This document shows, piece by piece, positions 12,001 through 37,772 of a stretch of 38,796 nucleotides of DNA. The notes below the pieces were generated by a model. The model worked only from the letters and a program-made list of their open reading frames with translations. It was not told the DNA's origin and searched no databases. How positions within the stretch are numbered: position 1 is the first letter of the stretch; the number at the start of each line of letters is the position of its first letter. A program made the position numbers and the translations under genes. Source of the DNA: a virus; the IMG/VR virus record IMGVR_UViG_3300027977_002177, positions 1 to 38,796 of that record; one strand, given 5' to 3'.

Positions 12001-15000
12001 TATGACAGATTCCAGTATCAAACTGTGATACAGGCCTGGAACAGTTCAGGCACCTATGAGAACGGCACCCTGGTGCGCCATCTAGACCGAGTATGGTCAG
12101 CACTCAATGCTGATGGCAGCTCAGCAGTGGTAGGGCCCACGTTTGATCTTGAAAACTGGCAGCTGGTCAATGCTGCCACTTACACGTATCCTGGAGCCAC
12201 TGAAGCAACTGGCTTGACTGGGGTTGATAGAACCATGGGTTTGTATGTGCCTGGTGCCAATTCACCTGGACTGGAATTGCCGTTGTTGGTGGCAGGGGTC
12301 GACTACCCAGGAGTGCAAGTCTGGGGAGAATATTTCACCGGTACTCAGACTCTTGATGCCAACTATCAAAGTGAATTTGCAGACATTTATCTAGGCACAA
12401 GATTCTCAGATATCAATGTAGATGGTGGCGAGTTCATTGGACCATACGAAGGCCATGCTCCAGAAGAATTGATCAATGGGTCAGAATATGACACCATGGA
12501 TCTACGAGTGTATACTAGACCAGGATCAGACTGGCAAAGCGATGGCCACGGATTCCAAATTGGCACAATTCGCTACACGTTTGACCCCGCTGTAACACTC
12601 ATTTACAGCTGGCGCGATGTGGTAGAAACACCGTTCACAATTGTGGTCAGCAATTTGACCACAGGTGGCGTGTTGGTTGAGAGCCTAGACTATGTGATTG
12701 ACTGGGCACAACAAACAGTGGAAATTCTAAACAATGCGGCCACTGATGACATCATAAACATAGATGTGTACGAAATTGGTGGTGGAAGTCAGCTGTTTAG
12801 ACAAACCTATACTGGTACTGAGGTGCTGGCCGACGGCCTCAAAATTACAGTTCCAGTGGGCTATTCTGAAATTGTCAGTGCAGATCTATGGATCAACGGT
12901 GCTAAGGTTGCACTGCCAACAGTGGAGCCATATACAGAAAGTGTGACTTACAGCAATCTCAACGCCTATGACGCCAATGACATTGTGCTCAACAACGCTG
13001 AAATCACTGTGACCAACACTGCCAGTGGCAGCAATGCGGTGACCTGCAACACTACCGCCGCACTCACCACAGGCCAGCCCATACAGTTCTCAGGTTCGGT
13101 ATTTGGCGGCATTGTGCCTGGACAACTGTATTATGTGCAGACCATACTGAATGGGGTGTCATTTGTATTGTCCGCAGTGGCCGGGTCAACCACTGCTGTG
13201 ACTCTGACCACAGCCACGGGCAGCATGATCGGTGCCCCACAGGGTGCCTACTACCGTGCTGTGCAAGGAGTGCCAGCTGGTATTGAATTGACCAATACCA
13301 ATTACTGGTTGCCATTTGTGCCTTCCCGTCGCAGCAAACTCACAGTGACTGCCACTGTGACTGCTACTGATTTACTATCTTTGTTGATACTGGGCAATGC
13401 TGTGTCAATCACAGTGACTGATACTATAGCACTGGGCAATGCCATTGTCTTGCAAGGATCAACTTCGCCGCTGTATGTGGGACAACCTGTGTCATTCTCT
13501 GGCTACAGTCTGGGTGGAGTGTTGACCAACACAGCGTATCAAGTGTTCTCCATAGTAAGTGATTCTATCAATGCCATAACCATCACTGAAGATGGTGTCA
13601 CAGAACTGGCATTGATAGATGACGAAGCAGACTGGAGCGGCCAACTCACTGCTAAATTTCAACCAAGCACGTATCAAAGCTGGAGCACTCCGGTGTCTCA
13701 AACGTTTGTGGTAGATCAAAACATCATAGACAATGGTGGCGTCACACTGGCGGATGCGCCAATTTTGAACAATGCTGCCAACATGATAGTAATGGTCAAC
13801 GGTGTCCGAGTACTAGGCCCCAGCTGTATTGAATGGTTAGGTGACGGCACCACAGCCAGTTTTGGCCTGCCACAACGCATGGGCACCAGTTTCTTGCAAA
13901 GCTCAATCAATGAGAATTCTGATATTCAGGTCTATGTTGACGCGGTGTTGCAAAAGCAGAGCTTTGGTGCACAAACAGGTGTGTACAGTGTGTCAGCCTG
14001 GAACGGCAGCAATACCCCAGGTCGTCAGGTAATTTTTACCACACCCCCGGCCAGTGGTGCAGTGATTGTGATTGCAGTTAGCACCTTGGCAGTGTGTGAA
14101 TTTGTGTATGATGCCAGTCAACCGGTATTCACTGCTGATTTGCAGTTTTCATCTCTTCTAAATCTAGGTGATGTGATTCAAGTGATCACCTGGAATGACA
14201 CTGTGCAACAACGTGTGCTAACTCTGACCTTTACAGGGCCAGTACAAACAGGTATTACCACAGTTGAACCCTATGACATTCTTGACTATGACAGCCCCAG
14301 CATCAACAATCCTTTTGAACCATTGCCGGGCTTGTTTGATGCTGAAATTGGCAGCAGTATTCCCACCAATGACTTTGATCTGCTGCGTGACAATGTCAAT
14401 GCCAGCCGACTGTGGGTCACACTGGATGGAGCCAGACTGTTTGAAGGCAGCGACTACACCATTCAAGGACAGTTTTTGATACTCACACAAGGTGCCATAA
14501 ACTCCAATCAAACAGTGATTGTGACAGAATTCACCAACTCTGTTGTGCCAGAAGCTGTGGAGTTCAGAGTGTTTCAAGACATGCGTGGTGTGCAGGCCAC
14601 ATACCGTATGACTCGTTCAAGCACCACCTACACTGAACAAGCTGTTTCGGCCACAGCTGACGTTATTGTGGTGAACAATGTTCAAAACCTATCACAGCCA
14701 GATCTGACAAATGGTGTGTTTGGTCTTGTGACCATCAACGGTGAACGCATCATGTACCGAAATCGAGATCTTGTGACCAATACCATTTCGGGACTGCGCC
14801 GCGGCACAGCCGGTACAGCAACAGCAGAGCATGACGCAGGATCCGTAGTATACGACATTGGCCAAGGCAATTTGTTGAATCAACTGTTTCAGGACTATTT
14901 GGTCCAAGACACAGGCATGGGCGATGGCACCACCACAGTGTTTTATGCACCCAGCATAGACATCGCTGATTTTGGTGATTCCAGCACCATATATGTAGAA

Positions 15001-16075: not shown

Positions 16076-17863
16076 ATGGCATATACAATCAATCTAACCG
16101 ACGGCACAGTTTTTGCAACCATAACTGACGGTACCATCAACACAGCAAGCTCAATGATTTTGGTGGGCAAAAACTACGCTGGCTATGGTGAATTTTTAGA
16201 CGAAAATTTCATACACTTGTTGGAAAACAATGCCAACACCACAGCTCCTGCAGCACCGCTGACAGGACAACTTTGGTGGGACAAAACCAACAATTTGTTG
16301 AAAGTGTACAACGGGTCCATATTTAAAACCATTTCGGCTGCCACAGCATCAGCTTCGCAACCAGCATCAAACGTCACAGGCGATCTATGGTATGATACTA
16401 CCAATCAACAACTGAAAGTGTACACAGGTGCAGCGTTTATTGTGGTGGGTCCTGGGTTCTCCACTGCACAAGGCACATCAGGTGCCATACCTGAAACTAT
16501 TTTGAATTCAGTTGGTGCCACACGATTCATCACCAGTTTGTATGTGAACAATGTCAGAGTTGGTATTGTGTACGAAGGAGCATCATTCACACCCGAAGTC
16601 AGTTTGCAGACAGCTTTCCCCACAATTTTCCCCGGCATCACACTGAGTGCAAGTGTGGCTGGTGCTGTGTTTGCTGGCTCTGCTACCAATGCACAGTTGT
16701 TGGACAACCTTGACAGCCTGCAGTTCATGCGCAGCGATACTGCCACTGCCACAACTGGTGTGCTGCGTGTGCAAAACAACACAGGTTTGTTTGTGGGTGC
16801 TGCCAATGTGTTCAATGTCAACACTACCACCACAGATGCCAACATCAAGAGCAATATCAGTGGTGGCAACTTGATAATTCAAGCCAACGTTGGCGGTGCC
16901 ACATACGATGTGGCCAGGGTACTGGGAGCCAGTGGTATATTTGCTGTGGCCAATGCAGCCACAGTTGGTACCACCCTGACCGTGACTGGCAACAGTGCAG
17001 GCGGTAATTTGACCACAGCTGGGCAGGTGTCAGCCACAGGCAATGTCACTGGTAGCAATATCAACGCTGTGGCACTGGTGCAAGCTGCCACTGTCAGCGC
17101 CACAGCCAACGTTCAAGCAGGCAATTTGCGTACTGCTGGCCTAGTTAGTGCCACAGGAAACATAACTTCAGCGGCCAACGTTGCAGGCACATACTTCCTG
17201 GGCAATGGTTCCCAACTTACAGGATTGAGTCTAGGTGTGAGTGTGACCAAGATTGAAAATGGTACTTCTGAAGGCTTTATCAATGCGCCCAATGGCAACA
17301 TTGCATTTACCGTAGCCGGTGTGGCCAATGTGGCTGTGATCACATCAGGCACTGCTTTCTTTGCTGGCAACGTCAGCACAATTGGTATTGAAAAAACTGG
17401 AACCAATGCCATTGGTAACATTGGTTCCAGTTCAAATTACTTTAACCGTGTGTTTGCCACTGCTACCACAGCATTGTACGCTGACGTTGCAGAACGCTTT
17501 GCAGCAGATGAATTGTTGGAACCGGGCACAGTGGTAGAGTTAGGCGGTTCAAAAGAAATTACTCGAAGCACTGAAGATTTAAGTGAGAATGTGTTTGGTG
17601 TTATAAGTACAAGACCAGCCTACACTATGAACGGCGGAGCCGGTGAGGATGACACACATCCTCCGGTTGCAATGACCGGACGAGTGCCTGTAAAATGTGT
17701 GGGTACAGTGCGCCGAGGCGATCGACTGGTCAGTGCTGGAGATGGATCGGCTAGAGCAGCACAGCCAGGCGAAGCCACAGCGTTCAATGTGATTGGTCGA
17801 TCTTTGGAAAACAAACATTTAGCAGAGTTAGGCACAATTGAAGCAATTGTGACCATCAAATAA
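16076..17863 (+). CDS. Tail fibre protein (595 residues)
   Basis: Three parts are visible. The N-terminal part (residues 1-125) has two GQLWWDKTNNLLKVYNG / GDLWYDTTNQQLKVYTG units, typical of phage fibre adaptor regions in marine phages. The middle (about 215-385) is a low-complexity beta-stalk built from short repeats such as TAGQVSATGNVTGSNI and ATANVQAGNL. The C-terminal part (about 465-595) begins ADVAERFAADE and has EPGTVVELGG, ENVFGVISTRPAY, MTGRVPVKCVGTVRRGD and VIGRSLENK. It resembles the globular ends of many tail fibres, some of which are related to self-cleaving Peptidase_G2-type domains; cleavage is not established here. It is preceded by a perfect T4-type late promoter. The role in host recognition is inferred. 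Confidence 0.75.
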   Translation: MAYTINLTDGTVFATITDGTINTASSMILVGKNYAGYGEFLDENFIHLLENNANTTAPAAPLTGQLWWDKTNNLLKVYNGSIFKTISAATASASQPASNVTGDLWYDTTNQQLKVYTGAAFIVVGPGFSTAQGTSGAIPETILNSVGATRFITSLYVNNVRVGIVYEGASFTPEVSLQTAFPTIFPGITLSASVAGAVFAGSATNAQLLDNLDSLQFMRSDTATATTGVLRVQNNTGLFVGAANVFNVNTTTTDANIKSNISGGNLIIQANVGGATYDVARVLGASGIFAVANAATVGTTLTVTGNSAGGNLTTAGQVSATGNVTGSNINAVALVQAATVSATANVQAGNLRTAGLVSATGNITSAANVAGTYFLGNGSQLTGLSLGVSVTKIENGTSEGFINAPNGNIAFTVAGVANVAVITSGTAFFAGNVSTIGIEKTGTNAIGNIGSSSNYFNRVFATATTALYADVAERFAADELLEPGTVVELGGSKEITRSTEDLSENVFGVISTRPAYTMNGGAGEDDTHPPVAMTGRVPVKCVGTVRRGDRLVSAGDGSARAAQPGEATAFNVIGRSLENKHLAELGTIEAIVTIK

Positions 17864-24070: not shown

Positions 24071-25121
24071 TATTACAAAGCACTGGGGGGACAATGAAAT
24101 ATTTTATCAAGCTGAATTATCATCAAAAATAATTTACAGCATGCAAAAACATGGAAAAGTAATTTTGATTTCACCAGAATCTCGATCACTCAAACATTCA
24201 GGGTTGAGTGAGTTTCTCGACACACTGTGCAATTTTTGGAACTGGAACCCAAAGGACATAGTGATAGCATCAAACAACATTTTTGAAGTTTCCAGTAAAT
24301 ACACAATAGAACCAATATCTATTCCTTGTTTATCTTTAGATAAAACACATCCTAGACACACTCCCTGGGACGGATCCAAAAGTTATGGAATGTTTTTAGG
24401 TCGGGCCACAGCAGAAAGACTTCAGGCAGTGTCACGCCATCAAACATTTGATTTCCGTGATCAAGGTCTTAGTAGTTTTCATCACAATGTAAAAAAACAT
24501 ATTGATACAAACGCATTGTTGAAATATCTGTGCGAGTCTGACAGTAGGTACAGCGAACTCATAAAGTTGGCTCCTTACAGCGATATCGGTCAAGTTGATG
24601 AACAAATTATTGGAAAACACAAAACGCAAGGTTGGGCAGAGGTGTACAAACAAATTGCACTTGAATTAGTGTTTGAAACATCAACAGCAGACGACGTTAT
24701 TACTGTGTCTGAAAAAATACTTAGGCCAATGCAGTATGGTCGCCCATTCATGCTTGTGGCAAGCAAACAAGCAGTACAAAAATTATCAGATCCTGAATTG
24801 CTTGCTGGACATTTTTTAGAACTAGCAACAAAGTGGAATCGTAAATATTACGAAGACTTTGCACAAAATTTTACAGGGATAAAATTCTTTAAAAATGTTT
24901 TTGGAACCGATTACGACAATGATTCTGGAATACACAGAGTAAATCATGTGTTTGATATTTTGCATACTCTAATTAGAACCAATCAAATTCATTCTATTCA
25001 CGACAAGTGTCGGCAAGACATTGAGCACAATCATAAGAATGTGCTGTTGTTAAAAAAATTAGCTAGAAATATGGGCAACTGGCAAAATCTCATGAACGCA
25101 AAGTATTCCAATGCAAAATAA
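24060..25121 (+). CDS. GT10-like (fucosyltransferase-like) protein, copy 1 (353 residues)
   Basis: The start is probably the ATG at 24060, overlapping the aminotransferase by 11 bases; an in-frame extension to 23982 is less likely. The C-terminal half carries VSEKILRPMQYGRPFMLVAS, equivalent to the EK-x-x-K/R-P ... PF block shared with the proteins at 26474 and 31357. That pattern resembles the nucleotide-sugar site of GT10 and related viral glycosyltransferases. The N-terminal 200 residues are specific to this copy. The gene is A+T-rich, unlike the structural block. Its end overlaps the first radical SAM gene. Donor and acceptor are unknown. Confidence 0.5.
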   Translation: MQVDITKHWGDNEIFYQAELSSKIIYSMQKHGKVILISPESRSLKHSGLSEFLDTLCNFWNWNPKDIVIASNNIFEVSSKYTIEPISIPCLSLDKTHPRHTPWDGSKSYGMFLGRATAERLQAVSRHQTFDFRDQGLSSFHHNVKKHIDTNALLKYLCESDSRYSELIKLAPYSDIGQVDEQIIGKHKTQGWAEVYKQIALELVFETSTADDVITVSEKILRPMQYGRPFMLVASKQAVQKLSDPELLAGHFLELATKWNRKYYEDFAQNFTGIKFFKNVFGTDYDNDSGIHRVNHVFDILHTLIRTNQIHSIHDKCRQDIEHNHKNVLLLKKLARNMGNWQNLMNAKYSNAK

Positions 25122-26490
25122 CAAAAGTCATTGGTTGCGCAGCGCAGAAAACATGCAAGAACAATTAGGTCCTGCATTATGTTTAGCAAAGTGGAAACAG
25201 GTCAGTTTACATTTGACTACAGGCATGAACAACTCATGCTATCATCCACCATTGCACCCAATCAATCCTGCAGAAATTGCAATAGATGTGTCAGCATTGC
25301 ACAACACTGATTATAAAAAACAACAACGTCGGATGATGTTGGCAGAAGTGAAACCTAGTGAATGTCAGTACTGCTGGAACATGGAAGATCAGGGCAAGAT
25401 CAGTGATCGACACTACCGTTCAGGTGAATCTTGGGCCGCGGTGGATTTTGAATCAATAAAAAATAGTACAGGAGAGGAAAATGTTATCCCCAGTTATGTT
25501 GAAGTTAATTTTAATCACGCTTGTAATCTTAGGTGTAGTTATTGTAGCCCTCAGTTTTCGAGCTCATGGGCAGATGAGGTTGCACGACTGGGTGCTTATC
25601 CTACTAGCAGTCCACACAACTCTCCTGATCATTTTATGGGTCAGCGTAGGCCAATACCAACCAGAGAATCAAATCCTTATGTTGACGCCTTCTGGGCCTG
25701 GTGGCCAGACCTGTACCCTCACTTAGAACATTTCCGAATGACTGGTGGCGAACCGTTGCTGGACAAGAACACATATCGTGTGTTTGATTATGTGTTGACC
25801 AACCCCAGTCCCCGACTACATTTGAATGTCACAAGCAACTTCTCAGTGGATGAGAAGTCATGGCAAAAGTATTTGACCTATGTCAAGGCCATATGTGATG
25901 GTCGCATTGAACACTTCATGCAATATGTGAGCCTGGATGGCTGGGGCGAGCAAGCGGAATACATGCGCAATGGCCTGGACTTTGATCTGCTGTGGGATCG
26001 AGTGAATCAATTCCTCACACAAGTGCCCAACTACTCAAGTCTTACATTTATCATCACAATGAACAATTTAAGTGTGACCAGTTTAGACCAACTGTTTGCT
26101 GGCATACTAGGCCTACGCAAGGTATACAGTGTGGACTATCAACGTGTGTGGTTTGATACACCTGTGTTGCGTGAGCCTGCTTGGCAAAGCCTACAAATCT
26201 TGCCAGAAAGTTATGTTGAACGACTGGAGTTGTTATGGGCATGGATGATACGTCAAATTGAAACAGAAGAAGAACCGTTCAAAGGATTCAAAGATTACGA
26301 ATTGCATAGGCTGGATCGCGACATTGCCTGGATGCGGTCTGCACAGTTAACAGATCACAGTCGTGCAAAAGCAGACTTCTATCGTTTCTTCAGCGAACAT
26401 GACCGCAGACGCGGCACAGACTTTTTGAAGACATTTCCTGAGATGCGAAGCTGGTGGGAGGAGTGTGCATACCATGCTAGGCAATCGTAA
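25111..26490 (+). CDS. Radical SAM protein with N-terminal twitch domain, A (459 residues)
   Basis: The N-terminal cysteine domain has C24, C43 (NNSCYHPPLHPI), C85 and C88 (ECQYCWNMED), able to hold an auxiliary Fe-S cluster. The radical SAM core follows with CxxxCxxC at C138, C142 and C145 (ACNLRCSYC) and the SAM-contacting GGEP at residues 212-215. The SPASM/twitch-like part lies before the core rather than after it, as in the family named twitch-domain-containing radical SAM proteins. Such enzymes usually modify peptides or sugars by radical chemistry. This copy and the one at 27570 form a subgroup (CxAKW ... SCxHPP). A nested membrane-protein frame lies at 25481-25726. Confidence 0.75.
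   Translation: MQNNKSHWLRSAENMQEQLGPALCLAKWKQVSLHLTTGMNNSCYHPPLHPINPAEIAIDVSALHNTDYKKQQRRMMLAEVKPSECQYCWNMEDQGKISDRHYRSGESWAAVDFESIKNSTGEENVIPSYVEVNFNHACNLRCSYCSPQFSSSWADEVARLGAYPTSSPHNSPDHFMGQRRPIPTRESNPYVDAFWAWWPDLYPHLEHFRMTGGEPLLDKNTYRVFDYVLTNPSPRLHLNVTSNFSVDEKSWQKYLTYVKAICDGRIEHFMQYVSLDGWGEQAEYMRNGLDFDLLWDRVNQFLTQVPNYSSLTFIITMNNLSVTSLDQLFAGILGLRKVYSVDYQRVWFDTPVLREPAWQSLQILPESYVERLELLWAWMIRQIETEEEPFKGFKDYELHRLDRDIAWMRSAQLTDHSRAKADFYRFFSEHDRRRGTDFLKTFPEMRSWWEECAYHARQS
25481..25726 (+). CDS. Candidate overprinted two-helix membrane protein inside radical SAM gene A (81 residues)
   Basis: This frame is +1 relative to the host gene. Its ATG is preceded by GGAGAGG with 3-6 bases of spacing, an excellent ribosome site. 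The protein has two hydrophobic helices, about residues 7-26 (LKLILITLVILGVVIV) and 37-56 (WVLILLAVHTTLLIILWVSV), joined by a short basic loop and an Asp-Trp pair. In the host gene the codons over the first helix end in T at 17 of 22 positions (hand count), which is what makes the +1 frame hydrophobic. A protein of the same layout sits at the same place in the paralogous gene (27901). Holin-like or other membrane function is speculation. Confidence 0.45.
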   Translation: MLSPVMLKLILITLVILGVVIVALSFRAHGQMRLHDWVLILLAVHTTLLIILWVSVGQYQPENQILMLTPSGPGGQTCTLT

Positions 26491-27577
26491 GATCATTGTA
26501 GATGAATGGGCTGAGGTATGGGATTTGCTCAAGACACATGCAGATGGCAGCTTCTGGCAGTGGACTGACATTGTACTTGATCCCAACAATGTGTATATTG
26601 TTGGGCGTGTGACATTAAAAAATCACTTTACAGAAATCACAGAATGGGCAAGGCATTATCCTGGCCGTATTGTATTTTCCAATCCTGCAGAAGGCAGCGA
26701 AACCATACTGTTGCAACTCACACGGTTGCGCATCAAAGAACAAGTACGACAAGGTGAGATTTTATTGTTGACCTCAGGCAACATGGAGCCAGGATGGCGT
26801 TACTGCAAAACAGACTGCTACTTCTCCAACATTGTAGAGTACCTGGAAAATTTACGTGCTCATGAGTCTTATCCACAACTGTATCACAAAGTCAACAAGC
26901 CTTATGACTTTTTGTTTTTGAACGGGCGGTTACGACCACATCGCAAGTACCTAATAGATGCCATGCGCAATCGCAAACTGCTGGATCGAGCACTGTGGAC
27001 CAATCTCAATGATCGTGTGGAAATGGCCTGGAGCAGTCAATTACAAATTGGCGATTCTGAACCCATACGATTATTGCCTAAACAATATGAAATTGATCGT
27101 GCATTGCCCAATATGAGCACAGTGCCCGGGGGATTTGTAAAACATTACTTGTTTGGCAACACCTGGGGCGATGCAGAAGTCAATCCTGCACCATACATTG
27201 ACACATACTTCAGTGTGGTCACCGAAACCATTTACGACTATCCGTACACATTTCGCACAGAAAAGATCTGGAAGCCCATGATCATGTGTCATCCATTTGT
27301 GGCAGCAGCCAACCGCGGATACTACAAGGATTTACACTCAGCAGGATTCCAAACATTTGGGCACCTGATTGATGAAACATTTGATCTAATAGATGATCCT
27401 CGAGATCGTGCCAACAGAATAGTTGACGTTGTAGCAGATATATGTTACAATGGTGCTGCCAGTTTCTTGGAAGCCGCTAGATCCGTTTGTAAATACAACT
27501 ATCAACAACTTCGCGAACACAATGCTCGTGAACGTGCAGAGCTTCCAGAACGTTTGGCCCAATACATCAATGAATGA
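26474..27577 (+). CDS. GT10-like protein, copy 2 (367 residues)
   Basis: I choose the ATG at 26474, with GGGAGGAG ending about ten bases upstream; a GTG at 26465 is too close to that site. The N-terminal half (YIVGRVTLKNHFTEITEWA, RIVFSNPAEG) looks Rossmann-like. The C-terminal half has VTETIYDYPYTFRTEKIWKP, then MIMCHPFVAAANRGYYKDL and GFQTFGHLIDETFD. These are the EK-x-x-KP, HPF and GF-TF blocks shared by all three copies in the window and similar to GT10-type enzymes. It overlaps radical SAM A by 17 bases and B by 8. The product is a probable glycosyltransferase of unknown specificity. Confidence 0.55.
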   Translation: MLGNRKIIVDEWAEVWDLLKTHADGSFWQWTDIVLDPNNVYIVGRVTLKNHFTEITEWARHYPGRIVFSNPAEGSETILLQLTRLRIKEQVRQGEILLLTSGNMEPGWRYCKTDCYFSNIVEYLENLRAHESYPQLYHKVNKPYDFLFLNGRLRPHRKYLIDAMRNRKLLDRALWTNLNDRVEMAWSSQLQIGDSEPIRLLPKQYEIDRALPNMSTVPGGFVKHYLFGNTWGDAEVNPAPYIDTYFSVVTETIYDYPYTFRTEKIWKPMIMCHPFVAAANRGYYKDLHSAGFQTFGHLIDETFDLIDDPRDRANRIVDVVADICYNGAASFLEAARSVCKYNYQQLREHNARERAELPERLAQYINE

Positions 27578-28916
27578 TTTAGAATTTAAACAACAGGTCC
27601 TAGACCCGTTATCCCCAAGTTTTTGTGCAGCGAAGTGGTACAATGCTACCATTTGGTTAGGAAGTGGGCAGACCACAAGTTGCCATCACCCGCCAGCTCA
27701 TTTGATTGACATTGATAAAGTCTCTAACAACTCTAGGCTGTTGCACAATACTGATCAAAAGAAAGCAGATCGTCGAGAAATGGTGCTGGGCAAACGTCCT
27801 GCTGGCTGTGAGTACTGCTGGAAAATTGAAGACATGGACACCAACGCTGTGAGTGACCGTGTGTACAAATCAAAGATATATGAAATAAAGGACATCAACG
27901 ATGCATACTACGGTGACAACTACCACAAAGACATCAATCTTAAAACTCTCGAAATTAGTTTTGATCGCACTTGTCAATTTGCTTGTTCTTATTGCAATCC
28001 TGCTTTTAGTTCCACTTGGGTCAATGACATCCGGAAACATGGGCCCTACGTCGGATTGGTTAGCGATGGTAGGAACCATTTTACTCACACTCATGATAGT
28101 AGTCAACTTTATAAATTCGGTGAGACTAATCCGTACGTGGAAGCCTTCTTCGACTGGTGGGAATCGGACCTCCACCGCACCTTGCAAGAACTGCGAATAA
28201 CCGGCGGTGAACCTTTGATGTCGGGTTACACTTGGAAACTGATAGAATGGTTCAAGACCAATCAAGGACGAAGTACGACCCGGTTGGCTATCAATTCAAA
28301 TCTTGGCATTGAGATGAGCAAGATCAAAGACTTTGCTGTGGCCGTTGCCCCATTGCCCAAGGTGGATTTGTATACCTCAATGGAAGCCACATTTGCGCAA
28401 GCAGAGTATATTAGAGATGGCCTTGACTACAACCAATGGCTCAACAATGTGTTGTTTTTGTTGGAAGGAAGATTTGTCAGTGCAGTGCATGTGATGTGTA
28501 CCATCAATGCCTTGTGCTTGGACAGTCTTGTGAGTCACCTTGACATGATGTTGACATTGAAACAACGTTATGGTCGAGATCAACTGAACTTTACATTGAA
28601 CATCTTGCGCTTTCCCAGTTTCCAAAGTGCATTAGTGCTGCCAGACAACATACGTACTGGTTATCGCTTGCAGTTGGAAGCATGGTTGTTTCACAATCAA
28701 GATAATCCTTGCTTGCACGAACACGAAGTAAATCATGTGCTACGGCTAATTGATTATTTGGACGTTGTTAAAACTCCACACTCAGAAGCATTTGAAATGC
28801 CAAAACTGTTAAACGACTTTAAACAGTTTTACACACAGTATGATCAACGCAGGGACAAAGTCTTTGCTAAAGCGTTTCCTAACCTAGAAGAATGGTATGA
28901 CTCAATACAAGTATAA
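27570..28916 (+). CDS. Radical SAM protein with N-terminal twitch domain, B (448 residues)
   Basis: The start ATG 27570 overlaps the previous stop. The frame is open back to 27450, but that would overlap the previous gene deeply. C19 (SFCAAKW), C38 (TSCHHPPAHLI), C80 and C83 (GCEYCWKIED) form the N-terminal cluster domain. C135, C139 and C142 (TCQFACSYC) form the radical SAM site, and GGEP lies at 212-215. Domain order and spacing match gene A closely, so A and B are paralogues, separated by the second GT10-like gene. The substrate is unknown. A nested frame at 27901-28200 covers the core motif. Confidence 0.75.
   Translation: MNDLEFKQQVLDPLSPSFCAAKWYNATIWLGSGQTTSCHHPPAHLIDIDKVSNNSRLLHNTDQKKADRREMVLGKRPAGCEYCWKIEDMDTNAVSDRVYKSKIYEIKDINDAYYGDNYHKDINLKTLEISFDRTCQFACSYCNPAFSSTWVNDIRKHGPYVGLVSDGRNHFTHTHDSSQLYKFGETNPYVEAFFDWWESDLHRTLQELRITGGEPLMSGYTWKLIEWFKTNQGRSTTRLAINSNLGIEMSKIKDFAVAVAPLPKVDLYTSMEATFAQAEYIRDGLDYNQWLNNVLFLLEGRFVSAVHVMCTINALCLDSLVSHLDMMLTLKQRYGRDQLNFTLNILRFPSFQSALVLPDNIRTGYRLQLEAWLFHNQDNPCLHEHEVNHVLRLIDYLDVVKTPHSEAFEMPKLLNDFKQFYTQYDQRRDKVFAKAFPNLEEWYDSIQV
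27901..28200 (+). CDS. Candidate overprinted two-helix membrane protein inside radical SAM gene B (99 residues)
   Basis: This frame is +1 relative to gene B. The ATG follows TAAAGGA with 8 bases of spacing. Helices are at about residues 19-39 (LVLIALVNLLVLIAILLLVP) and 53-71 (WLAMVGTILLTLMIVVNFI), with a short loop ending in Asp-Trp, the same order as the nested frame in gene A. It ends just before the GGEP codons, also as in A. Over this stretch gene B uses codons such as CTT, CTC, GTC, TCC and CGG that are uncommon nearby, consistent with a second coding constraint. A membrane role is inferred, and homology to the A copy is plausible but not shown. Confidence 0.45.
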   Translation: MHTTVTTTTKTSILKLSKLVLIALVNLLVLIAILLLVPLGSMTSGNMGPTSDWLAMVGTILLTLMIVVNFINSVRLIRTWKPSSTGGNRTSTAPCKNCE

Positions 28917-30159
28917 CAGCACTGATTTGGTACGGCCAACAGAGTTAACTGAACGTGAGCAGTTTTTACTAACAGACTCAAAAACATTCTGCATATATCC
29001 CTGGATACACCTGCATGCCTACCCCACAGGTGAAGCATATCCTTGCTGTCATGCTGAAATGTCTGTAGGACCGGTGGGCAATTGCCGCAAAAATACCTTG
29101 GAACAAATATGGACTGACACACCCATGCAACAACTGCGCCAGGACATGTTGACCGAAACACCTAATGCTGCCTGTGGTCGTTGTTATGAACAAGAAGCCA
29201 ATGGATTCTTTAGTGGGCGTAAGAGTGCAAACAAGCATCACGGGCACCAGATTAAGAAGTTAGACGAGAATCCTTTTGAAATTACTTACTGGGATATTCG
29301 TTTTAGTAATTTATGCAATTTGAAATGCCGCAGTTGCGGACACATATTCAGCAGTCAGTGGTATCAAGATCAAGCCAAGTTAGCAGGTGGTGATTGGAAA
29401 GAGCAGAACTCGGTGTTGAACTATGCAGGGCGCACTGAAACAGACATGTGGGAACAACTAGAACCACACTTGAACTATGTGGAACAGATTTACTTTGCTG
29501 GCGGCGAGCCCTTGTTGATGGAAGAACACTATAACATCCTAGCGGAGTTGGTCCGGAGAAAACGCTTTGATGTGCGATTGATTTACAACACCAACTTCAC
29601 TCACACTGAACTCCGAGGCCGAAGTGTGTTTGAATATTGGCGGCAGTTTGACAATGTGGCAGTAGGCGCAAGTCTAGACGACTCAGGCGCACGAGGTGAG
29701 TACATTCGCAAAGGCACAGACTGGGCTGTGGTAGAACAAAATCGCAGAGACATGCTGCAGATATGTCCTGAAGTTGATTTTTATATCTCGCCCACACTCA
29801 GTATTATGAATGCATGGCATCTAACAGACTTTCATCGTGATTGGACGGAACGTGGGTTGATTCGTGCGCAAGATTTGAATGTAAACATATTACAAGATCC
29901 TGCGCACTACAGAATAGATATCGCGCCCGCGGAATACAAAAAACAATTGCTAACAAAGTTTACTGATCATATCAACTGGCTAAAACATCAGGATCCATTG
30001 CAACGAGCCACAGTGGGATTTGAAAGTGCTGTCAAGTTTATGATGGCCACGGACAATACACATTTGCTAGACACGTTCTGGCGCAAAACATACGAGTTAG
30101 ATGACATTAGAAAAGACAATATACTCACAGTGATCCCAGAATTGGCAGTATTGCAATGA
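28897..30159 (+). CDS. Radical SAM protein with N-terminal twitch domain, C (420 residues)
   Basis: This copy belongs to a second subgroup in which the N-terminal domain looks like a SPASM/twitch unit moved to the front: FCIYPWIHLHAYPTGEAYP (C32), C50-C51, then GNCRKNTLEQIW and C93/C96 (CGRCYEQE). The radical SAM site is C140, C144, C147 (LCNLKCRSCG) and GGEP lies at 202-205. YNTNF and SLDDSGARGEYIRKG are typical of the SAM and substrate side of the barrel. It overlaps gene B by 20 bases and gene D by ATGA. No long nested hydrophobic frame is present here. Confidence 0.75.
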   Translation: MTQYKYNSTDLVRPTELTEREQFLLTDSKTFCIYPWIHLHAYPTGEAYPCCHAEMSVGPVGNCRKNTLEQIWTDTPMQQLRQDMLTETPNAACGRCYEQEANGFFSGRKSANKHHGHQIKKLDENPFEITYWDIRFSNLCNLKCRSCGHIFSSQWYQDQAKLAGGDWKEQNSVLNYAGRTETDMWEQLEPHLNYVEQIYFAGGEPLLMEEHYNILAELVRRKRFDVRLIYNTNFTHTELRGRSVFEYWRQFDNVAVGASLDDSGARGEYIRKGTDWAVVEQNRRDMLQICPEVDFYISPTLSIMNAWHLTDFHRDWTERGLIRAQDLNVNILQDPAHYRIDIAPAEYKKQLLTKFTDHINWLKHQDPLQRATVGFESAVKFMMATDNTHLLDTFWRKTYELDDIRKDNILTVIPELAVLQ

Positions 30160-31370
30160 ACATACCACACGATAAATTCTGCGTACTACCTTGGGTTAGT
30201 ATCGAAGCAAGCCCTATCGGCACAGTGCGTCCTTGTTGTCTTGCTGACGATGAAATATTAGATGACAACGGCAACAAATTTGAATTAAGCACTGCCAACT
30301 TTGCTGACATACAAAATAGCAATCACATGCGTGGTTTACGTGAGCAGTTTCTTGCTGGTGAACGTCCACAAACGTGTCGCAAATGTTGGAATGAAGAACG
30401 CGGTGGCCGCACCAGCAAACGCATGCACACGCTAGACAGACTCAAGCATTCAATTACGGACACAGAGTGGACAGCAGATGCCAAACCCTTGATGTTTTTA
30501 GATTTGAAACTGGGCAACATCTGCAACTTGAAATGTCGTATATGTGGATCGTGGAGTTCAAGTCAGTTTGCCACAGAAGAGCTGAATGATCTACACCCCG
30601 ATCATGACAAAAAACAAACTTATGCATATCAAATGCTACGTGCTGGAGCATGGCCCAGAGAGAATCAGCAGTTCTGGCAACAGATTGATAGTGTGTTGAC
30701 AGACATTCGTTACATTGAATTCACTGGCGGCGAGCCGTTCATGATTGACCAGCATTTTGACATGTTGCAAGGTATCATTGACCGTGGCATCGCACATCAG
30801 GTTGAAATACACTACAACACCAATGGTACGCAATATCCCCAACGTGGCGAAGGCATTTGGCGGCATTTCAAAACAGTTGAAATTGCATTCAGCATTGATG
30901 ACATAGGTGCTCGTTTTGAATATCAACGAACCAATGCAGACTGGGCCATGGTATTGGACAACATCACAAGATTTCAATATTTAAAAACTCAAATTCTCAA
31001 TTTGCAGTTACAGTGTTGCAGTACAGTAAATGTGTTCAATGTTCGTTATATTGATGAGTTGGCGCACTGGATAGCATGTCAACGATTTGACTTTGTGTAC
31101 TGGAACATGATGCATGATGCTTGGTACTTTAGTATTGCTACACTGCCTGACACAGCCAAGGCAGGCATAACACAACATCTGCTGAACGCAGATGTGCCAC
31201 CTGAATACCGCGAGGAGTTTGATCGCATTGCGGACTTTATGAATACTGGTGCTTCAACTGATGGATTCATGTTGCGTATGAAAATTGCAGACTTGGATCG
31301 CAAACGCAATCAAAACTTACAAGATGTTGAACCTGAACTAGCTGCTCTGATAAACTATGTCAAAACGTAA
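30156..31370 (+). CDS. Radical SAM protein with N-terminal twitch domain, D (404 residues)
   Basis: The N-terminal domain has C9 (FCVLPWVSIEASPIGTVRP), C27-C28, C74 and C77 (TCRKCWNEE). The radical SAM triad is C123, C127, C130 (ICNLKCRICGSWSSSQF), followed by a TGGEPFM block, HYNTNGTQYP, and SIDDIGARFEYQR, which matches the SLDDSGARGEYIR block of gene C. C and D are therefore adjacent paralogues. The start overlaps the stop of C as ATGA. The gene ends overlapping the third GT10-like gene by 14 bases. The substrate is unknown; peptide or sugar radical chemistry is expected from the family. Confidence 0.75.
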   Translation: MNIPHDKFCVLPWVSIEASPIGTVRPCCLADDEILDDNGNKFELSTANFADIQNSNHMRGLREQFLAGERPQTCRKCWNEERGGRTSKRMHTLDRLKHSITDTEWTADAKPLMFLDLKLGNICNLKCRICGSWSSSQFATEELNDLHPDHDKKQTYAYQMLRAGAWPRENQQFWQQIDSVLTDIRYIEFTGGEPFMIDQHFDMLQGIIDRGIAHQVEIHYNTNGTQYPQRGEGIWRHFKTVEIAFSIDDIGARFEYQRTNADWAMVLDNITRFQYLKTQILNLQLQCCSTVNVFNVRYIDELAHWIACQRFDFVYWNMMHDAWYFSIATLPDTAKAGITQHLLNADVPPEYREEFDRIADFMNTGASTDGFMLRMKIADLDRKRNQNLQDVEPELAALINYVKT

Positions 31371-32939: not shown

Positions 32940-33883
32940 AAAAAATATTGGTATGCGGAGCCGGTGGATTTATAGGAAGTCATCTTGTGCGTAGTTTGAA
33001 AGCACAAGGGAACTATGTTGTGGGAGCTGATCTCAAACTGCCAGAGTTTGGTCCCACTGCAGCAGATGAGTTTCATCAAGTTGACCTGCGCAACCAACGG
33101 CAGGTTACCAAATTAATCACGCAAGACATGGATGAGATATATCAACTGGCTGCTGACATGGGCGGCGCAGGATTTGTGTTTGTAGGAAACAATGACGCAG
33201 ACATCATGCACAACAGTGCTTTGATCAATTTGAACATCTTGCATGAGATCACATTCAAAAAGACGCCCAAGATCTTTTACAGCAGCAGTGCTTGTATGTA
33301 TCCTGCACACAATCAACTTGATCCTAACACACCCATTATGACAGAAGCCAGTGCATATCCTGCTTATCCCGACAGTGAATATGGTTGGGAAAAGTTGTTC
33401 AGCGAACGACTATATCTGGCATTTGCCAGAAACTACGGTATAGATGTGCGCATAGCTAGACTGCACAATGTGTTTGGTCCTGAAGGTACCTGGTGCGGTG
33501 GCAGAGAAAAAGCACCTGCTGCCTTGTGTCGCAAAGTGGCTGAAAGTTCGGGCACAGTAGAAGTCTGGGGGCCAGGCACACAAACACGCAGTTTCACCTA
33601 CATAGATGACTGCATAGAAGGCATACAAAGACTAATGGCTAGTGATTACTCGCAACCTATCAACATAGGATCTAACAGAATAATCACACTCAATAACCTA
33701 GTGCGTCTGATTACGGACATAGCCGGTAAAAATGTAGACATCGTGAACGTACCCGGACCTGTGGGAGTAATGGGACGTACTAGCGACAATACTCTTATTC
33801 GTCAAGTGCTTGACTGGGCACCACCAGACAACTTAGAATCAGGGTTGGAAAAAACTTATCGTTGGATCGAATCACAACTATGA
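32936..33883 (+). CDS. GDP-mannose 3,5-epimerase-like NAD-dependent epimerase (315 residues)
   Basis: An extended short-chain dehydrogenase fold is clear: the NAD-binding GAGGFIG at residues 8-14, AADMGGAGFVF, the YSSSACMYP strand with the catalytic Ser, and YGWEKLFSERLYL with the catalytic Tyr and Lys. RIARLHNVFGPEGTW, GGREKAPAALCRKVA and TRSFTYIDDCIEGI strongly resemble plant and bacterial GDP-mannose 3,5-epimerases, which make GDP-L-galactose. The close match of the AADMGG block supports that family over general UDP-sugar epimerases. It overlaps both neighbours by ATGA. It probably supplies an unusual hexose to the glycosyltransferases here. Confidence 0.75.
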   Translation: MKKILVCGAGGFIGSHLVRSLKAQGNYVVGADLKLPEFGPTAADEFHQVDLRNQRQVTKLITQDMDEIYQLAADMGGAGFVFVGNNDADIMHNSALINLNILHEITFKKTPKIFYSSSACMYPAHNQLDPNTPIMTEASAYPAYPDSEYGWEKLFSERLYLAFARNYGIDVRIARLHNVFGPEGTWCGGREKAPAALCRKVAESSGTVEVWGPGTQTRSFTYIDDCIEGIQRLMASDYSQPINIGSNRIITLNNLVRLITDIAGKNVDIVNVPGPVGVMGRTSDNTLIRQVLDWAPPDNLESGLEKTYRWIESQL

Positions 33884-35157
33884 GCTTGTGCATGGCGCCC
33901 TGGGTGCATACCTATTTGAGTCCGCAAACAGAACGGCGCATGTGTTGTGCAAGCCGTGAGCCTGCGCAGAATTTTGAGCAATACATAGACACAGCCGCGG
34001 GCACTGGCAAGTATATTCCTATCACACTGGATGAACATTGGAACTCACCACACATGATGAGTGTGCGTAGCCGTATGATGTCAGGAGAGACACTACCTGA
34101 ATGTGAAGTGTGCAATAACAAACTGTTGAACACCGACGTTTACCGCACATATTTTTGGCAACTATTCAAACATAAGTATCCTGACATCTGGGAGACCACA
34201 GACACCGCAGGCCGCACCACAATGCAGCCAGTGAGTTGGGATTATAGATTTAGTAACTTGTGCAATTTTAAATGTAGAACATGTGGTGACATGCTGAGCT
34301 CAAGCTGGGAAACAGAACAGCGACAACACAACATGATTGACTGGTCAAATTCCAAGAATGCCTGGATGAAACCTGAAGTGCGGCAAGAAATTTCTGCATT
34401 TCAAGACAGCAAGATAGAAGCCGAGTTTGCGGCAGCAGTGGAACAGCATCGTGTTGAAGAAGTGTACTGGGTAGGTGGCGAGCCCTTGATGTACGAACAA
34501 CATTGGCGTTATATGAAACGCATAGTTGAATTAGGGGATGGGCCGAAGGTATATGCTAGATACAATACAAATCTATCCAGAGTGGATTATCGAGGTGTTA
34601 ACTTATATCGCGATATTCTCAGCGGGCTGCGCGATTGGCAGATATGTGCAAGTCTCGACGGCACAGGCGCAATTGGTGAATACATTAGAACAGGCCTTGA
34701 GTACGGTCGCTGGCTTGACAATTTTGGTCAAGCAGTTGCGATCCAACGTCACCGACGTCAAGTACGAATTGACTTTACGCTCACTCTGCCCGGAATGTTC
34801 GAAGTTACACGCATTAGACAACTTGCACAAACACACGGAGTCGACATCCTTGCTAAAGTGATATTCTCATTCTCACCAGACATTGTGTTGAGTCCATTGG
34901 CCTTGCCTAGAACGCTGTTAGACCCGTGGATTGACGAACTAGTACTTGAAATAGATGGTGCTTTGCGTGACATGTTGGTGCAATTAAAAACACGCCCTAC
35001 ATTTGAAGAACAATGGCCAGATACTTACCGGCAAGGTCTTGCAAGTGGGCGGGATCGTGTGTTACAATTAGAAAGCATACGCACACAGAAGATTACCATG
35101 ACGGAGATACTTGCTGAAAGACCCGCGGTGCTGGAATGGTGGAACAACATTGCTTGA
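33880..35157 (+). CDS. Radical SAM protein with N-terminal twitch domain, E (425 residues)
   Basis: I choose the ATG at 33880 (MSLCMAPWVHTYLSPQT), overlapping the epimerase stop; an in-frame TTG lies at 33862. C4, C22-C23, C75 and C78 (ECEVCNNK) form the N-terminal cluster domain. C128, C132, C135 (LCNFKCRTCGD) form the radical SAM site, then WVGGEPLM, ARYNTNLSR and SLDGTGAIGEYIRTG. It belongs with C and D rather than A and B. It is separated from D by three genes, so it is not a simple tandem copy. A nested +1 frame at 34553-34861 perturbs its codon use. Confidence 0.75.
   Translation: MSLCMAPWVHTYLSPQTERRMCCASREPAQNFEQYIDTAAGTGKYIPITLDEHWNSPHMMSVRSRMMSGETLPECEVCNNKLLNTDVYRTYFWQLFKHKYPDIWETTDTAGRTTMQPVSWDYRFSNLCNFKCRTCGDMLSSSWETEQRQHNMIDWSNSKNAWMKPEVRQEISAFQDSKIEAEFAAAVEQHRVEEVYWVGGEPLMYEQHWRYMKRIVELGDGPKVYARYNTNLSRVDYRGVNLYRDILSGLRDWQICASLDGTGAIGEYIRTGLEYGRWLDNFGQAVAIQRHRRQVRIDFTLTLPGMFEVTRIRQLAQTHGVDILAKVIFSFSPDIVLSPLALPRTLLDPWIDELVLEIDGALRDMLVQLKTRPTFEEQWPDTYRQGLASGRDRVLQLESIRTQKITMTEILAERPAVLEWWNNIA
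34553..34861 (+). CDS. Candidate overprinted one-helix membrane protein inside radical SAM gene E (102 residues)
   Basis: This frame is +1 relative to gene E. The ATG 34553 has GAAGG three bases upstream; an ATG at 34538 is also possible. One helix is seen at residues 11-29 (WIIEVLTYIAIFSAGCAIG), then a long, probably helical region and a CPEC pair at 79-82. By hand count, Leu codons of gene E in the overlap are 7 CTC/CTT of 11 and no TTG, although TTG and CTG prevail on both sides. In the +1 frame 13 of 16 Leu codons are TTG/TTA. The nested frame thus has the phage-like codon style and the host frame does not. The layout recalls inner-membrane spanins; that is speculation. Confidence 0.5.
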   Translation: MLDTIQIYPEWIIEVLTYIAIFSAGCAIGRYVQVSTAQAQLVNTLEQALSTVAGLTILVKQLRSNVTDVKYELTLRSLCPECSKLHALDNLHKHTESTSLLK

Positions 35158-36175: not shown

Positions 36176-36273
36176 AATGGCTACGCAGACTTTGGGATAG
36201 AATTACCTTGGAAATACGTTATCGTAAAAAGCTGAAAGAACTTCGCAAACGAGATCCTTTTATCTACAAATGA
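36172..36273 (+). CDS. Very small basic protein (33 residues)
   Basis: ATG 36172 follows AGGAG (36161-36165) with six bases of spacing, overlaps the previous stop as ATGA, and its own stop overlaps the carbamoyltransferase start as ATGA. This exact fit on both sides argues that it is real. The product begins MKWLRRLWDRITLEIRYRKK and ends KRDPFIYK. It has 12 Arg/Lys and is probably one amphipathic helix. I recall similar small proteins next to carbamoyltransferases in marine viruses. A membrane-surface or nucleic-acid contact is possible. The function is unknown. Confidence 0.7.
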   Translation: MKWLRRLWDRITLEIRYRKKLKELRKRDPFIYK

Positions 36274-37772
36274 ATATACTAGGTATCAGTGCTGGATTTC
36301 ATGATGCTGCTGCCACAGTGATCAATAACCAAGGCGACATTTTGTTTGCCGGCCACTCAGAACGCTACAGCAAAAAGAAAAATGATGCTGAATTGTGTGC
36401 AGGTCTAATAGATGATGTAATATATTACAATGATTATGGACCAATGTCCTGCACTCCAGAAATTGTGGCATATTATGAACGGCCGTGGCTCAAACAACTT
36501 CGACAATTATATGCTGGTCAGGGGGTTGAATGGGACAAAATAACGGTCAACCAAATTTTAAAATCACAACTGCAAGGCCGTATTAAACCCAAGCAGGTGC
36601 ATAGTTTCAATCATCATCTTTCACACGCTGCGGGTGGCTTTCAAACAAGCCCGTATGATCGTGCCACTGTAGTGGTAATTGACGCCATAGGCGAATGGGA
36701 CACAATATCAATCTGGGGAGCAGAATATGATGGACAAGGACGAGCACGGTACCTACGATTATGGGGACAACATTACCCTCACAGCCTGGGTCTCTTTTAT
36801 AGTGCAATTACTAAGCGTGTGGGCCTACACCCACTAGACGAAGAATACATCACCATGGGCATGGCTGCATATGGCAGAGACAGTTACCATCATGTTATGG
36901 AAGCAGTGTTGATTCGTGATCTAGATGAAATAGAGTTTGGACAAAACTTACACACCGGAGTCAATGACGAGTTCATGGGCAGTCTCAGCAATGAAGACAT
37001 TGCTGCTAGTGCTCAAACATTGTTAGAACGCTTGATAGGCAATGTCATGCAACGTGCTAGAGACTTCAAGTTCAGTACCAATCTTGTGTATCAAGGTGGT
37101 GTTGCACTCAACTGCTTGGCTAATCGAAACTTAGGAGAATACTTTGACAATATTTGGATCATGCCCAACCCCGGAGACGCCGGATCAAGTCTTGGCGCTG
37201 CTGCTCTTGCGTATGGTAAGAGGCTGCATTGGCGCAATGCTTTCCTTGGTCACAATATTGCTGGCCCTTATCCTGTCGATAGTGTTGTTAGGACTTTACT
37301 CGGCACTGGCATTGTTGGAGTGGCTAACGGTCGCGCTGAATTTGGGCCCAGAGCGTTGGGCAACCGGAGCCTACTTGCAGACCCCCGTGGTGCAGAAATC
37401 AAGGACAGAGTAAATGAAATCAAACGCAGACAAAAGTTCAGACCCTTCGCCCCTGTCATATTGGCTGAACTGGCTGATGATTACTTTGACATCGAGTCTG
37501 GCTGGCATACTCACAATTATATGCAGTCAGTCGCTCGTTGTCGCCAACCTAATGTTTACCCTGCTATATGTCATGTTGATGGCACCAGTAGAGTACAAAC
37601 GGTGGCAAAGGACGGATCAGGAATAAGACAGTTGTTGGAAGCATGGTATGCCCAAACCGGTTGCCCCATGTTGCTGAACACCAGTTTGAACATACGTGGC
37701 AAGCCCATGGTCAACAATCGAGCAGATGCGGATCGTTTTGAATATGAATATGATGTAAAGGTACATTCATGA
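36270..37772 (+). CDS. NodU/CmcH-family carbamoyltransferase (500 residues)
   Basis: The family motifs are intact: ILGISAGFHDAAATVI at the start, HHLSHAAGGFQTSPYD (residues 115-130) and VVVIDAIGEWDTISIW in the ATP-grasp-like HSP70/actin-type fold, VYQGGVALNCLANRNL, then GRAEFGPRALGNRSLLADPR (from residue 354), FRPFAPVILAE and MLLNTSLNIRGKP. These enzymes transfer a carbamoyl group from carbamoyl phosphate, via carbamoyl-AMP, to a hydroxyl on a sugar or antibiotic. The length is slightly below that of bacterial NodU. The neighbours are FkbM methyltransferase and sugar enzymes, so a carbamoylated glycan is likely. Two nested frames lie at 37144-37413 and 37414-37626. Confidence 0.85.
   Translation: MNILGISAGFHDAAATVINNQGDILFAGHSERYSKKKNDAELCAGLIDDVIYYNDYGPMSCTPEIVAYYERPWLKQLRQLYAGQGVEWDKITVNQILKSQLQGRIKPKQVHSFNHHLSHAAGGFQTSPYDRATVVVIDAIGEWDTISIWGAEYDGQGRARYLRLWGQHYPHSLGLFYSAITKRVGLHPLDEEYITMGMAAYGRDSYHHVMEAVLIRDLDEIEFGQNLHTGVNDEFMGSLSNEDIAASAQTLLERLIGNVMQRARDFKFSTNLVYQGGVALNCLANRNLGEYFDNIWIMPNPGDAGSSLGAAALAYGKRLHWRNAFLGHNIAGPYPVDSVVRTLLGTGIVGVANGRAEFGPRALGNRSLLADPRGAEIKDRVNEIKRRQKFRPFAPVILAELADDYFDIESGWHTHNYMQSVARCRQPNVYPAICHVDGTSRVQTVAKDGSGIRQLLEAWYAQTGCPMLLNTSLNIRGKPMVNNRADADRFEYEYDVKVHS
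37144..37413 (+). CDS. Candidate overprinted membrane protein 1 inside the carbamoyltransferase gene (89 residues, TTG start)
   Basis: This frame is +1 relative to the carbamoyltransferase. The TTG start is preceded by AGGAG (37133-37137) with six bases of spacing. A long hydrophobic helix spans about residues 31-58 (MLSLVTILLALILSIVLLGL and beyond), after a Pro-rich N-terminus and a shorter hydrophobic stretch at 16-22. Leu codons in this frame are mostly TTG/CTG, the style of the phage, while the host frame uses CTT four times among nine leucines. It ends immediately before the ATG of a second nested frame, as TAAATG. Expression is unproven. Confidence 0.4.
   Translation: MTIFGSCPTPETPDQVLALLLLRMVRGCIGAMLSLVTILLALILSIVLLGLYSALALLEWLTVALNLGPERWATGAYLQTPVVQKSRTE
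37414..37626 (+). CDS. Candidate overprinted membrane protein 2 inside the carbamoyltransferase gene (70 residues)
   Basis: The ATG directly abuts the stop of the previous nested frame and has AAGGAC eight bases upstream. It is in the same +1 frame. Two hydrophobic helices are seen, about 17-36 (WLNWLMITLTSSLAGILTII) and 41-57 (LVVANLMFTLLYVMLMA), with a charged C-terminus (EYKRWQRTDQE). Small size, two helices and a charged tail are holin-like features, but many unrelated proteins look the same. Host-frame leucine codons give no extra support here. The tandem arrangement with the previous frame is the main reason to list it. Confidence 0.35.
   Translation: MKSNADKSSDPSPLSYWLNWLMITLTSSLAGILTIICSQSLVVANLMFTLLYVMLMAPVEYKRWQRTDQE

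Follow-up and report, generated by a model that had tools for sequence, protein, structure and literature searches.

The 38,796-nucleotide stretch analysed here in full (the window; IMG/VR record IMGVR_UViG_3300027977_002177) is a fragment of a tailed phage, a large freshwater phage known solely from IMG/VR. Two paralogous radical SAM-type genes in the window, A and B, very probably each carry an overprinted gene in the +1 frame (nested A and nested B) that would be internally initiated, would encode a two-helix membrane protein and appears to be under purifying selection. An open frame, selection on that frame, a conserved start codon with its ribosome-binding site and helical, hydrophobic products are direct observations; we infer that the nested genes are translated. 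In the mechanism that we propose, a ribosome would initiate at an internal ATG behind its own Shine–Dalgarno sequence on the parent mRNA, the product of about 69–99 amino acids (aa) would be a small inner-membrane protein with two helices, and purifying selection would maintain the nested reading through the choice of synonymous codons in the parent. Three further nested +1 genes of like style probably exist, one in gene E, a fifth radical SAM-type gene, and a coupled pair (nested a and nested b) in a NolO-like carbamoyltransferase gene.

Open +1 frames in genes A and B

Each nested frame is a complete open reading frame (ORF) that starts and stops inside its parent gene on the same strand. 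A preliminary description of this DNA had placed such frames in the +1 register of both paralogues, each behind a Shine–Dalgarno sequence, spanning the CxxxCxxC codons and ending before or near GGEP. Both frames and both ribosome-binding sites are present as described (Table 1); CxxxCxxC lies at codon 137 of A and 134 of B, the nested stops at codons 204 and 209, respectively, and GGEP at codon 211 in both genes. The two motifs and a radical SAM profile match are all present in A and B, both of which match PHROG radical SAM families, and A matches PF04055 below the curated cut-off. The window's nested-B ATG is one codon downstream of the start in most relatives (codon 109 in 76 of 87), and beyond the closest clade the stop of nested A usually comes sooner, at codon 190.

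Given the encoded protein and the gene's own codon usage, the probability that the +1 frame is free of stops is 0.03 for A and 0.0025 for B in the window sequence alone. This already exceeds chance, and codon alignments of homologues (128 for gene A and 119 for gene B) are decisive. Among relatives at or above 85% identity, there are no +1 stops in nested A where 43.1 are expected and a single one in nested B where 38.9 are expected; the frequent stops in close homologues that had been named as the contrary outcome did not occur. Outside the overlaps, the observed/expected ratio for the same relatives is 0.99 (A) and 1.04 (B). At ≥85%, 70–85% and <70% identity, the ratio is 0.00, 0.51 and 0.60 within nested A and 0.03, 0.27 and 0.28 within nested B, with values of 0.94–1.04 outside the overlaps across the identity classes. 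For gene B, 29 sequences that are mutually <75% identical contain 9 +1 stops versus 84 expected.

When 27 gene families were scanned without bias in both same-strand shifted frames (+1 and +2), the four strongest depletions were all in the +1 frame: 0.12 in B, 0.16 in the carbamoyltransferase gene, 0.18 in E and 0.28 in A. The ratio in the next families is at least 0.51, save for one family of only 7 representatives (0.35). Under a regional null, where shuffling retains the codon composition of the overlap itself, observed and expected +1 stops are 65 versus 101 in A, 23 versus 113 in B and 20 versus 94 in E, and in the carbamoyltransferase gene 69 versus 136 over nested a and 21 versus 65 over nested b. 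The avoidance depends on the next base: Leu and Val codons ending in G are retained before G, where the +1 frame reads TGG, and avoided before A, where it would read TGA (odds ratio 0.17 in A and 0.07 in B).

These data bear directly on the possibility that T-ending codons over CxxxCxxC produce an open, hydrophobic +1 frame as a chance by-product with no selection. The +1 translation of the motif is indeed hydrophobic by default (expected Kyte–Doolittle (KD) value about 0.3–0.5), a weak version of the frame occurs in gene C, and related contigs contain other, stopped stretches that match the nested profile. However, 2–4 stops are expected per sequence and are absent, and the bias toward pyrimidine-ending codons at CxxxCxxC is confined to A and B, being missing at the same motif in C and D. 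Synonymous divergence is also lowered, and the codons that form the start and the ribosome-binding site are fixed, as described below. A chance origin is accordingly most improbable; as a candidate it was ruled out by the stop, synonymous and start-codon tests, having already been refuted for B.

Initiation signals and synonymous change in the parents

The ribosome-binding sites and start codons of the nested genes are visible as biased codon choices in the parents. Codon 106 of gene B is GAG in 37 of 41 rows with Glu (90%, against 28% gene-wide; p = 6e-17) and AAG in 11 of 12 rows with Lys, which yields GAGG or AAGGA, and 49 of 50 rows have GAT, AAT or CAT at the start-forming codon 109, where the next G completes an ATG. 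In gene A, a Gly codon is GGA in 73% of the Gly rows against 26% gene-wide (p = 2e-13), yielding (A)GGAG, and an Asp codon is GAT in 89% against 60%, which supplies the ATG of nested A. The ATG of nested b is retained by AAT in 37 of 38 Asn rows, and the TAA of nested a, immediately before this ATG, by the Val codon GTA (74% versus 26% gene-wide); nested a itself starts with TTG, ATG or GTG in relatives, after AGGA(G). Because these preferences are synonymous choices in the parent, selection on the parent protein does not explain them. A conserved initiation signal is clear in nested A, B, a and b and is not clear in nested E.

Programmed frameshifting, by which the +1 frame would give the radical SAM protein a different C-terminus and would not be a gene of its own, would fit the location of the overlap in mid-parent, since a shift near codons 105–123 would join the hairpin to the N-terminal third. 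The conservation of an internal Shine–Dalgarno sequence and ATG argues against it, as do the +1 stops found just upstream of the nested start in most relatives (at B codon 105, 66 versus 25 expected); no slippery site was noticed, although no search was aimed at such sites. We regard frameshifting as very hard to sustain.

A pooled synonymous comparison at or above 70% identity showed no dip over the overlap because of saturation, and disjoint sister pairs were therefore used instead. With these, the synonymous rate is 0.46 (31 pairs) or 0.61 (57 pairs) of expectation over nested A and 0.64 or 0.72 over nested B. The edges of the dip coincide with the nested start and stop, whereas the paralogues C and D stay at 0.8–1.16 throughout. 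Normal synonymous variability, the other contrary outcome raised beforehand, is thus not what we found: the reduction is present over the overlap only. Nested E shows a dip to 0.75. The previously unannotated gene between A and B, which begins at 26465, served as a positive control of the scan, with a rate of 0.48 only at its 3′ end, under the 5′ extension of ORF B. This extension (or another overlap) therefore seems real in the close clade. ORF B has a possible start at 27450, which would overlap the end of gene 26465 in +1 (27450–27577), and other relatives start near 27570; the start of gene B is probably 27570, and 27450 in the close clade.

Leu and Arg codons offer an internal comparison, in which third-base changes always alter the second base of the +1 codon and first-base changes are mostly silent in +1. 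Suppression is stronger for third-base than for first-base changes in B, E and the carbamoyltransferase gene (odds ratio 1.40, p = 0.004), and no such effect is seen in the control genes C and D. In A, changes of either type are reduced, on small numbers. Because the sequences are related, our p-values are indicative, not exact.

A constraint at the nucleotide level, such as an RNA structure, a regulatory site or slow codons for Fe–S folding, would make the open frame a side effect. The regional bias toward pyrimidine-ending codons extends to positions where no stop is possible, and first-base silent Leu/Arg changes in A are also reduced (18/112 versus 664/2031, small numbers), as such a constraint would predict. 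It would not predict the next-base-dependent avoidance of exactly the +1 stops, nor signals that end at the nested start and stop codons. First-base silent changes are, moreover, near normal in B, E and the carbamoyltransferase gene, and the pattern is found in a non-Fe–S enzyme, yet is absent from the Fe–S genes C and D. We therefore consider a nucleotide-level constraint improbable.

Selection could also act on an overlap on the antisense strand (e.g. 27870–28265, minus strand) and not on the +1 frame, given that in-register antisense stops are depleted over B (21 versus 64) and over the carbamoyltransferase gene (23 versus 64). The Leu codons TTA and CTA, however, are freely used before C or T, where they create an antisense stop but no +1 stop, and the ribosome-binding site and start both lie on the plus strand. 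The antisense ORF was rejected: of 66 B representatives, just 13 have it open, whereas 54 have an open +1 frame, and the chance that antisense selection explains the pattern is negligible.

Several observations weigh against selected nested genes in A and B, the support for which is wholly comparative. The frame is intact in 88 of 128 sequences for nested A and in 98 of 119 for nested B, a stop interrupting it in the other 40 and 21 homologues. Parsimony places the open state at the midpoint root with at least 19 (A) and at least 13 (B) state changes, and among A/B pairs from the same loci in an earlier set, 63 have both nested frames, 20 have exactly one and 5 genomes have neither. The stop deficit of A is gone among the most divergent representatives (37 versus 39 expected at 75% identity with regional usage) because several lineages lost the frame, and the Leu/Arg first-base control in A is low, as noted above. 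The mutual similarity and hydrophobicity of nested A and B are partly a consequence of having homologous parents, the nested-B profile also matches stretches elsewhere in related contigs that carry in-frame stops, and no nested homologue was free-standing outside a parent among those found in the nested E search, so that no independent copy hints at function. More distant lineages lose the frame, and the nested genes are therefore not universal. Taken on this comparative record, they are selected yet dispensable in some lineages, in line with accessory effectors.

Products of the nested genes and their possible roles

Predictions give two transmembrane (TM) segments to 72 of 84 nested A proteins and to 80 of 87 nested B proteins, in agreement with the two-helix membrane proteins first proposed. 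The Asp-Trp that had been listed as a shared feature is not conserved, being present in only 12 of 84 nested A and 6 of 87 nested B proteins. It had also been cautioned that T-ending codons over the motif tend to give a hydrophobic +1 reading; this holds in that hydrophobicity is partly imposed by the parent, but the +1 hydropathy exceeds the synonymous-codon expectation (z = 8.9 for A and 11.5 for B). An AlphaFold2 model of nested B is a helical hairpin of moderate confidence (pLDDT 67).

The nested A and nested B profiles match in register with a probability of 97.5%, and the two genes probably share a single nested ancestor, which would have been duplicated together with its parent. Mean charges give nested B an N-in/C-in pattern (positive tails) and nested A the reverse (positive loop), a hint that the two products may have opposite membrane orientations though homologous. 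The stopped stretches that match the nested-B profile lie in contigs related to L068, L078, L025 and L067 (G004:40095-40376, G003:255839-256099, G006:155117-155395 and G005:11257-11526) and probably represent further paralogues of the parents that lack a nested gene.

Nested E, unlike the other products with their two predicted helices, has a single predicted TM helix, after which come a long helix and a CPEC motif; it is located after GGEP and not over CxxxCxxC, and gives weak, scattered matches to Rz-like, i-spanin-like PHROGs. Nested a and nested b are both hydrophobic and stand in tandem, stop–start coupled with abutting TAA and ATG. Nested B showed no homology to either nested a or nested b, and these two showed none to each other. 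Cultured or single-virus homologues of the carbamoyltransferase gene (Phage C48C1 and AG-345-D19) offered only a partial 67-codon run in C48C1, which is not convincing.

Pfam, PHROGs and Foldseek searches (nested B against PDB and nested E against BFVD) and tblastn of nested B and E against cultured phages returned nothing useful on function. A small inner-membrane effector is the most likely role. With low confidence, and by analogy, the products may act on the host inner membrane in a holin-like, phiX174-E-like or superinfection-exclusion-like manner; with no family match, we have no favourite among these.

Class II holins of the phage 21 S type are proteins of about 70–100 aa with two TM helices in an N-in/C-in arrangement. 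Nested A and B resemble them in size and in the number of helices, and the charge pattern of nested B agrees with N-in/C-in whereas that of nested A is the opposite; neither matches a holin family in Pfam or PHROGs. Holins are normally free-standing genes, unlike nested A and B, and no lysis genes were identified adjoining the latter. No endolysin was named among the scanned window genes, and PF00959 is absent from 8 large related contigs, other endolysin families not having been searched; absence of this lysozyme says little about a lysis role. Superinfection-exclusion proteins of the T4 Imm type are very small inner-membrane phage proteins with two hydrophobic segments, and T4 imm is not known to be nested within another gene. 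Nested A and B are like Imm in size and in their two hydrophobic segments and have no sequence match to it.

The closest formal parallel is the phiX174 lysis gene E, which lies within gene D in a shifted frame, where T-ending parent codons place T at the second codon position and give a leucine-rich TM segment (PMC8227390). Like E, nested A and B are wholly nested in a shifted frame, and T-ending parent codons yield their TM segments. E, however, has one TM domain, inhibits cell-wall synthesis and belongs to a 5.4-kb single-stranded DNA phage, as opposed to two helices in a large double-stranded DNA phage here; the parents here are accessory enzymes, the bias to T/C-ending codons is local and not genome-wide, and several cases occur in one cluster. 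No homology of the nested proteins to E was found. In phage lambda, the small envelope gene Rz1 is embedded in +1 within Rz, an arrangement that annotation frequently overlooks (PMC6139136). Rz1 is a lipoprotein of the outer membrane whose gene sits within a lysis gene, whereas nested A and B lack a lipobox Cys and lie inside radical SAM-type genes. With two TM helices and no N-terminal Cys, they do not have the form of spanins, which carry either a lipobox or a single TM helix with a periplasmic coiled coil.

Genomic setting and implications

The features discussed are collected in Table 1. They belong to an accessory cluster at 22–38 kb that encodes a hexapeptide transferase, an aminotransferase, an epimerase, the NolO-like carbamoyltransferase and an FkbM methyltransferase along with the five radical SAM-type genes A–E. 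The radical SAM-type genes (25111–31370 and 33862–35157) are divergent, and it is notable that a single phage groups five of them with enzymes that modify sugars. Genes C and D have no local depletion of +1 stops and a flat synonymous profile.

Table 1. Positions of parent genes, nested genes and ribosome-binding sites in the window
Feature	Position	Strand	Remarks
Gene A, radical SAM-type, parent of nested A	25111..26490	+	CxxxCxxC, GGEP
Ribosome-binding site of nested A	25470..25477	+	AGGAG/GGAGAGG, Shine–Dalgarno-like; Gly codon GGA bias
Nested A	25481..25726	+	+1 frame of gene A; 81 aa; two predicted TM helices
Previously unannotated gene between A and B	26465..27577	+	Final ~128 nucleotides shared, in +1, with the 5′ extension of ORF B
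Gene B, radical SAM-type paralogue, parent of nested B	27570..28916	+	31% identical to A
Ribosome-binding site of nested B	27888..27892	+	AAGGA; GAGG in most relatives
Nested B	27901..28200	+	+1 frame of gene B; 99 aa; two predicted TM helices
Gene C, radical SAM-type	28897..30159	+	Paralogous control, no nested gene
Gene D, radical SAM-type	30156..31370	+	Paralogous control, no nested gene
Gene E, fifth radical SAM-type gene, parent of nested E	33880..35157	+	
Nested E (candidate)	34538..34861	+	+1 frame of gene E; 107 aa; stop depletion, synonymous dip
NolO-like carbamoyltransferase gene, parent of two tandem nested genes	36270..37772	+	
Nested a (candidate)	37144..37413	+	+1 frame of the carbamoyltransferase gene; 89 aa; TTG start; AGGAG at 37133-37137
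Nested b (candidate)	37414..37626	+	+1 frame; 70 aa; AAGGA at 37401-37405

A neighbouring gene of 201 aa has its best likeness to phages Phosso, Atu_ph07 and Munch (350–490 kb), and hundreds of relatives of genes A and B occur in viral contigs, on contigs of up to 365 kb. Neither A nor B has relatives among 50,697 cultured phage records, and no cellular relative of gene B was found among 84,980 species genomes at the sensitivity of a pattern search; a cellular origin is thus not supported. Earlier in the window, an uninterrupted ORF of 5090 aa (1–15273, open at the window start) precedes a tail-fibre-like gene (16076–17863). Long nested ORFs within the 5090-aa ORF (e.g. 8093–8494) show no comparable +1 selection signal, and the earlier window genes, this giant tail-type ORF included, likewise gave no signal comparable to that of the nested genes.

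Internal overlaps are frequently annotated across virus records in general (PMC7017920). Searches of a full-text literature collection on overlapping genes with phage and radical SAM, and on nested phage membrane genes, returned no report of this case and, as far as we have checked, the kind of overlap is already known, whereas the setting and number here are new. Known nested phage genes are mainly from tiny genomes or lysis cassettes, and here at least five would lie in enzyme genes of large phages. Because large phages are not short of space, this setting favours gene novelty or regulatory coupling over genome compression. One speculative extension, which we think doubtful but worth stating, is that a jumbo freshwater phage lineage systematically keeps five or more small membrane effectors within +1 frames of accessory enzyme genes, as a dispersed overprinted module for lysis or exclusion in which nested A and B would be paralogues of opposite topology.

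The signal extends across more than 100 uncultivated phage contigs, yet is invisible to standard annotation, and the scan can be applied to any phage gene family with sufficient metagenomic relatives. Auxiliary metabolic genes of phages may be retained partly for their nested products.

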